64,000 nt of DNA from Tieghemostelium lacteum. Lineage: Eukaryota > Evosea > Eumycetozoa > Dictyosteliales > Raperosteliaceae. The notes beneath the pieces are model-generated. The model was given only the letters and a program-made list of their open reading frames with translations, had not been told where the DNA came from and searched no databases. Made by a program: the position numbers and the translations under genes. Positions 14,035-18,116 of the stretch are shown piece after piece. The DNA lies in NCBI GenBank assembly GCA_001606155.1, contig LODT01000046.1:103113-167112 (forward strand), in the 5' to 3' direction. Within the stretch, counting starts at the first letter, position 1; each line of letters starts with the position of its first letter.

Positions 14035-14661
14035 TTAAGAATAGTATTTACCTGAAGTATCATGATTTAGACGCCATCTTAAAACTAATGCTACAATTGC
14101 TCCTAATAACTGTTTTAAAAAATAAAAATATTAATATCCATTCATCAATATATATATTTAATTTTAAAAAATAAAAACATACATTTACAAATAATAATAA
14201 AGCCATTGGTAGATAATAGGCGACACTTGAAAGTGAACATAAGAATGAAAAATTATCATTTGCATCACCACCACAACCTGTTATATCTAAATTTGTAACT
14301 ATAATTTGAGCTATACCAAATACCAACATTACAATCATTACAACTGCAAACTATTTTAAAATTATAAAATGTTAATATATTTAACTCTAGAGATGTTTCA
14401 AAGTTTTGGGAGATTAAAAAAGAAACATACATATAATAAAATTCCTCTATTCTTTTTAATTGCACCAATAAATGCTAAAACTGCCAAAATGATTAAAATC
14501 AATGCTGATGCAATATATATACCTAAAGCCACCCATGCTTCATTATCAACAGATTGTTTTAAATAAATCCAATAGGGTACTGTTAGACCCAATAACGCAA
14601 TACCAATAATTATAATTAAAACTCTAAGAAATGTTTCTATATTTCTATCTCTTGATCCCAT
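14035..14661 (-). CDS. Four-transmembrane (tetraspan-like) protein
   Basis: Three exons: 14661-14431, 14350-14183, 14109-14035; 157 aa. Introns start GTATGT and end TAG/CAG, all phase 0. Membrane segments: LRVLIIIIGIALLGLTVPYW (about 13-33), GIYIASALILIILAVLAFIG (about 47-66), FAVVMIVMLVFGIAQIIV (about 78-95) and YLPMALLLFVNLLGAIVALV (about 122-142). The loop between segments 3 and 4 holds TGCGGDAND and a further Cys, shorter than the large extracellular loop of true tetraspanins and without CCG. It is best called a tetraspan or MARVEL-like protein of unknown function. Confidence 0.65.
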
Positions 14662-15090
14662 TTTTATAAAAATATTTCTAATATATTTAAAATATGTACA
14701 ACTTCAATTGAAAATTTTATAATAATGATGAAATAAATAAAATAAATAAAATTGCTGATTTAAAAAAAAAATAGTGTGTTAATTATATAAGAGGTTGTAT
14801 TTGTACAGATGAATCAAAAATAAAAATAAAATAATCTCACAACAAAAAAATTTTATTTTTAAAAATAAGGGTTTTTGGTAGATTTTATTTGAAAATTTTT
14901 GAAAAATTCTTACACAACCACATAACTGTCATATTTTAATTAAATTTTAAGATGCGTACAATTTCTTTTGTTAACAATCACCGCAACTATTATTTTTCTA
15001 AACAAGTACCAAGTTTTTTTGTAACACACTTGATTTTGTGTTTTTTATTTATTTTTAAAAAAATGATATTCAGAAACCACAAGATACAAT
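14662..15090. other. Intergenic, no gene seen
   Basis: About 430 bp of AT-rich sequence between two minus-strand genes, with several A- and T-runs. No open frame, tRNA or repeat stands out. Confidence 0.6.
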
Positions 15091-16916
15091 CTAGAGGTAT
15101 TCAGAAATTTCAATGAGGTTTTTATCGGGATCACGTATATACACAGAAAGAATAGGACCATTAGCACCAGTTCTAGGAACTGGTCCCTCTTCAATTTTTA
15201 TAGAATGTTCAATAAATCTATTGATTACATCTCTAAGTGGTACTGAACTAATTACACATAAATCTAAATTACCGCATGCAATGTTATGTGCTCTAGGATG
15301 TATATCATGTGCATTATTTAATTCATGTATATTAATTTTTTGTCTTCCAAATTTTAATGCATATCTCTTCTTGTGATAGATATCTAAAAACTCTTGAAAT
15401 TCTAATCCCAATACTGTACTATAAAAATATTTACATTTCTCTAAATTCTCTGTTAATAATACTAAATGATCAATTGATTTAAATATTGATCTATTATCAT
15501 TATTATCATTACCATCTTCATTTTCATTATTATTATTTGAAATTGATTTTTTATCCATTTTTGGAATTGGTAAAATTTTATCAGACTTATTATTATTATT
15601 ACTATTTTCTAATTCTTTTTGAATAATATCATTATTTGAAAGTTTTGAAATTAATTTTAAATTTGCCATTGTTGAGGGTAAATTGACGAGATGATTATAG
15701 ATGATTGCTAAAATTTCAGAATCTACAAGTGCACCATGAGTTTTTCTAAGGAGAATTTTGTTAATGTTTAAATGTTGACTAACAGAATCTAAACTATAGG
15801 TTTGACCTTGATAAACTTTTCTAAAATATCTCATGGTACAGAAACACTTGTGATCAGGATTAAACTCAATATTGGATCTAATGAGTTCTTGTATTAGCAT
15901 TCTACGATCAAATGCCAAATTGTGTGCAATTAATGGACTGTCTCCTACCCAATCCATAAACGATGACAAAACAAATTGAATAGGTTTACAAGTCATCAAT
16001 AGATAAGAGGTTAGATTATGAACTTCTTGTGCTTTGGGATGTATCATGTTCAGTGGTTTAGCATAACTCTGAAATATGGCACCGGTTCTACATCCATCAA
16101 TTAATTCTACACCACCAATTTCAATTATACTATCATCTGGTCCAAATCCACTAGTTTCCAAATCAAAACATATAACTCTACCTTTTAGTATTGGCTCTTC
16201 AACTTCTATAAATCCTTTTAATGATTTTATAAGTTTATCACTATCTACATTAGAATTTTCCTTATTTTTAAACTTTTCATTGAATTTTAATTTAATTTCC
16301 TTTTTAATTGAATTTATTAGTAATCTAATCTAACAATCTATTAAATAATTATTATATTAGATTATGTATTTACATTAAAATTATCTTTATCATAATCTTT
16401 AATTTCAGGTTTTGGTTTACTCATCCAAATTGGTAATTTTCTATCTTTATTTTGATCATCTACTACTGTTGATTGTTTTGTTTTTTGTACTCCAATTGGA
16501 GAATCATCATTATCACCTGTTATCATACTATCAATGCCTTTATTAGGAGTTACAGTATGTGTTGGTAAATTGTTTCTATTTATCATTTTTGATTGATATT
16601 GTGTTGGTATAAAATATTCATCATCAGTTTGTGTATTATCATCATAGTCCATTAGCTCATCATCTTTATCATCTCTATAACTATTTGAAAACTGTACATC
16701 TTCATCATTACTATTATTAATCTGATTAATTGAAGAATCAATTAACTGTGCCAACAGTGGTGAAACATAGGATGTTTGTGGGTTACTATTACTTTGTGTT
16801 GTAGATTCTATTGTTGTTGTTGTTGTTGTTGAAAATGATATATTATTATTTGTTTTGGGTTTCTTAAATATTTCGTCAGATGCAAAGTCTAACAAATCAT
16901 CCCCATTTCCCTCCAT
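15091..16916 (-). CDS. DnaQ-like 3'-5' exonuclease fused to a glyoxalase/VOC domain
   Basis: Two exons, 16916-16374 and 16329-15091 (intron GTAAAT...TTAG, phase 0), 593 aa. Residues 1-180 are disordered and acidic. A DEDDh exonuclease fold spans about 225-405: VICFDLETSGFGPDD (Exo I Asp/Glu), SPLIAHNLAFDRRMLI (Exo II), and HGALVDSEIL (Exo III His and Asp). After an Asn-rich linker, a VOC/glyoxalase domain occupies about 467-593: IDHLVLLTENLEKCKYFY (metal His), KINIHELNNA (Glu) and RDPDKNLIEISEYL (C-terminal metal Glu). Both domains keep their key residues and lie in one uninterrupted exon. The pairing is unusual. Substrates are unknown; exonucleolytic trimming of nucleic acid is the safest guess. 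Confidence 0.88.
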
Positions 16917-16988: not shown

Positions 16989-18116
16989 TTAAAGATAATT
17001 TTTAATTTTTCTAATAATATTACGTATTTGAATTGGTAAAATGTTATTATTGATAATGTATTGGTCAACTAAAAGTCCAACTTGAGTTAACCACAAACGA
17101 TGTTTATCAGAATAGGTGTAACGTAATTTCAAAAATTGGTAATAGAGAACTAATAAGATGATAGATCTTTGAAGACCATAGGTAAAGATACCCAGTATCA
17201 GTACAATGACATTATAAATCTCAAATTTAACAGCTTGTTCAACTGCAATAGATCTCTTTGATTCCAATAATGCTAATTGATTATATATTGTTGGTGGTAT
17301 TCTATTTCTAATTTGTGCTAATGTCTTACCCAATACTTGATATAGTGCATAAATGAAATTTGGTAACAATATAACAAATGATGGGTACCCAAGGAAATAA
17401 AATATCAAACAATAGAAACTGTAATGTAAGTTATCATTTTTTGCAATTTCCATAAGTTTTTGTTGTGACATTGGTAATAAACTCTATTTTTAATATATAT
17501 AATAATAGTTATTAGATTAACAATCATGGTTTTGATATAACTCCTGTAGGAGAGTCTTACTTACTTCAATAACAGGGAATAATGAAATTGAATATCCTAT
17601 AAATGAAGCAAGTATTGCTCTGTAAAAGTTTGAATAGGAGGTAAACAAGTATACTATAGTGAATACTAATGTTGAAACTTGTGAAATTGTCCATGCTATA
17701 TATAAAAATCTATTATATGTTGAATTTTGTCTAGCTTCTGTACGTTGTGCACTTGGTGGTACAGATGAAGTTGATGATGTTGTTCTATTATAACTGTTAT
17801 TATTACTATTATTACTATTATTATTATTAGTATTAGTATTAGTATTTTGACTAGATGTTGATGATTGTGAAGTAGTTGATGTTGATGAATAATCTTTAAT
17901 TTCATAATTTGGATCCTGAAAAGAACAGGTTAGAATGTTTATATTCATTCTTAATATTCAATATTATCTTACAATTTTTCTTTTATAATATTTTTGTTTT
18001 AATTTTAATAATGCTGTATAATAATTTGAATTATTAGGAATTAATGCATTATCTAGATAGTTTTTCCAATCAACATCATTTTCCCAATCAAAACTTTCAA
18101 ATGTTGTTCCACTCAT
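16989..18116 (-). CDS. tmem33: TMEM33/Pom33-like membrane protein
   Basis: Three exons: 18116-17973, 17915-17565, 17483-16989; 329 aa; introns GTAAG...CAG and GTAAGT...TAG, phase 0. After a soluble N-terminus with an Asn/Ser/Thr linker come membrane segments around FLYIAWTISQVSTLVFTIVY, YRAILASFIGYSISLFPVI, YSFYCLIFYFLGYPSFVILL, LPNFIYALYQVL and IYNVIVLILGIFTYG. The block LGKTLAQIRNRIPPTI and the late QRSIILLVLYYQFLKLRY segment match the TMEM33/Kr-h2/Pom33 family. Those proteins shape ER tubules and nuclear pore-associated membrane. The N-terminal extension is longer than in animal TMEM33. Confidence 0.75.

Follow-up and report, generated by a model that had tools for sequence, protein, structure and literature searches.

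A predicted Tieghemostelium lacteum gene that joins a DnaQ/epsilon-type exonuclease domain to a GLOD5/STM3117-type VOC domain

In a 64,000-nucleotide stretch of the Tieghemostelium lacteum genome (contig LODT01000046.1, positions 103,113 to 167,112 of the forward strand; hereafter the window), a DEDDh exonuclease domain is followed in the same frame by a VOC domain, raising the question of whether the locus encodes one protein and, if so, what its two halves would do. A first-pass annotation placed the pair on one uninterrupted exon. This is accurate for the two domains, both of which lie in a single 412-codon stop-free frame (15091..16329, minus strand), but not for the gene as a whole: because the first methionine of exon 2 falls within the exonuclease domain, a 5' exon is required, separated from exon 2 by a predicted intron (16373-16330; Table 1). 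The spliced product is a predicted 593-amino acid protein from one gene on the minus strand (15091-16916), in which sequence and structure modelling point to a DEDDh residue set in a DnaQ/epsilon-type domain and a VOC domain, joined by a putatively disordered linker behind a low-complexity N-terminus. Exon 1 matched none of the Pfam and NCBIfam families at E values up to 1.

Table 1. Predicted features of the gene in window coordinates. Residues here and in the text are numbered within exon 2, not within the full 593-amino acid protein.
Feature	Position	Strand	Details
Exon 1	16374..16916	minus	181 codons; Asn/Asp/Thr-rich; start codon at 16916
Intron (predicted)	16330..16373	minus	44 nt, GT...TTAG, phase 0, 13.6% GC; splice sites predicted from sequence
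Exon 2	15091..16329	minus	412 codons + stop; carries both domains
DnaQ/epsilon-type DEDDh exonuclease domain	15631..16185	minus	aa 49-233
Exo I motif D-x-E	16156..16164	minus	aa 56, 58
Exo II Asp	15907..15909	minus	aa 141
Exo III H...D	15721..15738	minus	aa 198, 203
Linker	15490..15630	minus	aa 234-280; Asn-rich
GLOD5/STM3117-type VOC domain	15094..15489	minus	aa 281-412; candidate metal ligands H288, H335, E407 (putative role)

The three Exo motifs noted in the first-pass annotation are present, with Asp56 and Glu58 in FDLETSG, Asp141 in AHNLAFDRRML, and His198 and Asp203 in HGALVDSE, and all five columns are invariant in an alignment with four bacterial DnaQ proteins that are 30-34% identical to the exonuclease half (the best bacterial DnaQ, L117, is 37%, 42% or 44% identical, depending on the alignment used). 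The core fold and the five catalytic residues are shared with DnaQ, whereas the T. lacteum half differs in being eukaryotic and fused to a VOC domain. The half matches TIGR01406 with an E value of 9.5e-34 and passes the 71.5-bit cut-off of the subfamily-domain model TIGR00573 (83.2 bits for the whole ORF, 83.9 bits for the domain alone), but does not reach the equivalog cut-off of TIGR01406 (117 and 116.6 bits against 222.7). Judged by these scores, it appears to be epsilon-like while falling short of classification as the pol III epsilon subunit itself. A C-terminal polymerase-binding tail is a feature of epsilon; the alignment with TIGR01406 extends to position 204 of 231, leaving the last 27 positions unmatched, and that with 5fku_D to residue 178 of 243, although a failure to align is not proof of absence. 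In a fold comparison of the structure model, exonuclease-domain matches filled the list and epsilon was the best fold, with TREX1/2 rows at 18-24% identity to the exonuclease half and 3'hExo and ERI3 rows at 16-19%; none of the nine sequence matches of this half at E values up to 0.001 was named TREX1/2, 3'hExo or ERI3. Its branch on the exonuclease tree is very long (7.69 changes per column), so that its biochemistry may have drifted.

The family PF00929 matched the excised domain (E value of 8.3e-20), but was reported neither for the whole ORF nor at the window's locus in the scan of its own genome. We regard these misses as artefacts, probably caused by the HMMER filters acting on Asn-rich sequence, and since the family was missed at its own locus, the own-genome family counts are lower bounds. 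Asn-rich neighbouring sequence may mask strong domains more generally, and other scans of similar genomes may be affected too.

The VOC domain is complete, as had been proposed, and the candidate ligands His288 (in IDH), His335 (in NIHEL) and Glu407 (in LIEIS) are invariant across eight family members including the query; within the HEL motif, the histidine is invariant but the adjacent glutamate is not conserved. The domain passes the cut-off of PF00903 (33.6 bits against 20.6), matches human GLOD5 (3zw5) and STM3117 with E values of 1.4e-31 and 1.2e-28, and in a profile search retrieved five chains of the GLOD5/STM3117 group (E values of 2e-64 to 4e-52) ahead of the next VOC proteins at 8e-6 and weaker. 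Identity to seven GLOD5/STM3117 members is 46-51% over the whole domain, 34 columns are invariant in all eight aligned rows, and the invariant residues of the family (3zw5, 3hnq, 3ey7) are present. The six aligned bacterial members are separate genes of ~125-130 amino acids and the PDB chains of the family have 133-152 residues, whereas the T. lacteum domain forms the C-terminal part of a far longer predicted protein; it also carries a four-residue and a two-residue insertion absent from the seven aligned relatives, and its substrate may therefore differ. Identity as a canonical glyoxalase I was considered and rejected (TIGR00068, 13.1 bits against a cut-off of 120, E value of 0.068 for the VOC domain alone). 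Judged by titles, the GLOD5 literature found includes no work on enzymology or on Dictyostelium. For STM3117, isomerisation of the methylglyoxal-glutathione adduct has been reported in a review that itself questions this activity as difficult to square with other findings (PMC7397319).

On balance, we consider it probable, by a little more than an even chance, that the locus is a single genuine gene for a two-enzyme protein in which a free-standing exonuclease and a small-molecule metallo-VOC are largely independent of each other. The first half would be a two-metal 3'-5' exonuclease trimming DNA (or RNA) ends outside a bacterial-type polymerase complex, and the second a metal-dependent VOC enzyme for a small reactive metabolite; methylglyoxal glutathione hemithioacetal is the sole candidate substrate that we found reported for the GLOD5/STM3117 family. 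The two halves would act largely independently within the fusion, and the tether may place carbonyl detoxification near nucleic acid, with coupling a possibility only. We favor this reading, with a small-molecule VOC tethered to a free-standing exonuclease, because an activity has been reported for STM3117 and because a separate glyoxalase I is probable in the same genome. Our own-genome searches cover 23.33 Mb, and at C40:754184-754640 two exon-sized matches jointly cover most of TIGR00068, each below the cut-off, as expected for exon pieces, so the genome likely carries glyoxalase I as a gene of its own. At least eight matches to the wider VOC superfamily occur in this genome, the fusion gene included. 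A family-A DNA polymerase model also gave four matches in this genome, in long open frames at C2:645134-646375, C21:556805-558043 and C24:1097152-1098138, one of which may be an organellar polymerase.

Searches of several collections returned the pairing nowhere but at the window's own gene. The query matched 183 plasmid and 25 phage records, none with a single place covering 80% of the query. The top-ranked row covered 31% among the best 30 of the 183 plasmid records and 30% among the best 20 of the 25 phage records, and since rows were ranked by the product of coverage and identity, a fusion, even a divergent one with coverage slightly below 80%, should have ranked first. Among 220 loci examined, 157 had an exonuclease match and 52 a VOC match, and the three that had both (L007, L009 and L015) all represent the window's own gene. 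Six of the 38 genomes traced from 38 of the 80 best exonuclease loci contain both halves, always on different contigs. Within one bacterial phylum, 392 of 398 genomes matched; among the matches listed none spanned both halves, and in the 13 genomes with both halves among those matches, the two occur on separate contigs in 10 cases and at a distance of over 240 kb in 3. A whole-ORF search of viral contigs, for which the search patterns were weak, found no relative; a search based on the VOC alignment recovered 15 VOC loci from the same collection, none with an exonuclease match. The earlier statement that no standard family is known to pair these domains agrees with our results, as neither a known family nor a published report of the pairing was found in the literature searches. 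As far as the collections and literature searched show, the architecture is new and its parts come from known families.

The confinement of the pairing to the window's own three among the 220 loci is consistent with an incidental fusion, in which adjacent ancestral genes were joined via read-through and the halves remain functionally unlinked, and low-complexity linkers are common in dictyostelid proteins. We nevertheless regard this origin as unlikely. Each half has retained its active-site residues and is probably still in use, although such a state is compatible with this account too.

The physical fusion and the retained active-site residues of the two halves also speak for a coupled repair or nucleotide-sanitising enzyme, in which the VOC half eliminates carbonyl (glycation) adducts or their precursors at the DNA and the exonuclease clears adducted 3' ends. 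Methylglyoxal modifies guanine, and a second close copy was found for neither half in its own genome: the exonuclease query matches itself only, and the VOC query itself and one further sequence (23% identity, E value of 0.009). Against this, we found no report of a GLOD5/STM3117-family VOC enzyme acting on nucleic acid, the 5.4-kb regions of six bacterial VOC relatives contain no gene annotated as DNA repair (one of the six lies near nrdB, a deoxynucleotide-synthesis gene), and the flexible linker of the model gives no hint of a shared active site. Such an enzyme is in our view distinctly unlikely. The first-pass annotation, which correctly recognised a DnaQ-like exonuclease fused to a complete VOC domain, had offered as a possible logic that the VOC part works on damaged or modified nucleotides and is coupled to end trimming; this part is possible but finds no support, as the VOC half is a relative of a family for which the one activity we found reported is on a small molecule, and of the 220 loci none but those of the window's gene combines the two matches.

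A further alternative is that the locus is not one gene, either because the assembly is misjoined or because a stop or splice site between two genes was missed in the linker. It would be served by a methionine ahead of the VOC domain (MDKKSIS) that could start a separate protein, and by the composition of the linker, which is AAT-rich, a kind of sequence in which assembly misjoins may arise, and at 17% GC close to its flanks (15-20%). However, the two domains share a strand and a frame, and the 47 linker codons between them are open without a stop, as were 18 of 1618 overlapping control stretches of this length, taken from both strands of window DNA almost wholly outside stop-free runs of at least 60 codons; the way in which the control was defined biases it low, the statistic is soft, and the AAT-rich composition weakens it further and makes a misjoin possible. 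Among GTA[AT] and [CT]AG sites in the linker, the sole pair more than ~22 nt apart would excise 112 nt and shift the frame. In the structure model (mean pLDDT 79.7, pTM 0.54) both domains are for the most part confidently predicted, but confidence is low in the linker, residues 243-279 of which have pLDDT values below 50 and are predicted to be disordered. We consider it quite improbable that the locus is not one gene.

The origins of the two halves were considered separately. As judged from titles, Alphaproteobacteria account for approximately 70 of the 80 top-ranking genome loci for the exonuclease half. The median tblastn score was 96.1 bits for 30 alphaproteobacterial loci and 84.7 bits for 29 gammaproteobacterial loci, each class being represented by its best loci alone. 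In the exonuclease tree the gammaproteobacterial rows excluded the query (100/91), although an alternative tree with the query among them fits equally well (AU p 0.506). These results hint at a possible alphaproteobacterial (mitochondrial) origin of this half. A 49-row VOC tree, in which human GLOD5 was the sole animal row and from which rows with a stop or shorter than 90 amino acids had been dropped beforehand, grouped the query with bacterial members in a starred 24-row set (100/98) that does not contain the human protein. Joining the query, whose branch is long, to human GLOD5 gave a borderline AU p of 0.046, so that the data favor, at a borderline level, a bacterial over an animal-type origin for the VOC half. 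The nearest VOC sequence on the tree is L212:1489-1869, from an IMG/VR viral contig (54% over 121 columns).

It is very improbable that two bacterial-type enzymes were gained by an amoeba and welded into a dedicated glycation-repair enzyme, with the metallo-VOC clearing or preventing dicarbonyl adducts at DNA 3' ends and the exonuclease trimming them; if true, this would be a eukaryotic repair enzyme for which no counterpart was found. Extremely improbable is resistance of a soil amoeba through binding of a bleomycin-type DNA-damaging drug by the VOC half and cleaning of damaged 3' ends by the exonuclease: bleomycin-binding proteins have the VOC fold, and Ble-like_N matched below its cut-off (E values of 0.0012 for the whole ORF and 0.00028 for the VOC domain alone), but the nearest family is GLOD5 and the candidate metal ligands, which to our knowledge drug-binding VOC proteins lack, are retained.

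Conservation of the two-enzyme protein in dictyostelids would link GLOD5, a VOC family of unsettled function, to nucleic-acid processing, a connection that could then be tested in amoebae amenable to genetics; a fusion limited to one species would be an ordinary lineage-specific event. As to its surroundings, the start codon lies ~70 bp from an upstream neighbour on the same strand (window 16992-17957, minus) that resembles a TMEM33/POM33 membrane protein and is apparently split by an intron, with one piece matching PF03661 at 2.2e-18 and a second matching the N-terminal part of that family below the cut-off (0.0008). The downstream neighbour (window 14060-14703, minus) may be a tetraspanin with introns, one piece having a weak Pfam match below the cut-off (E value of 0.00013).
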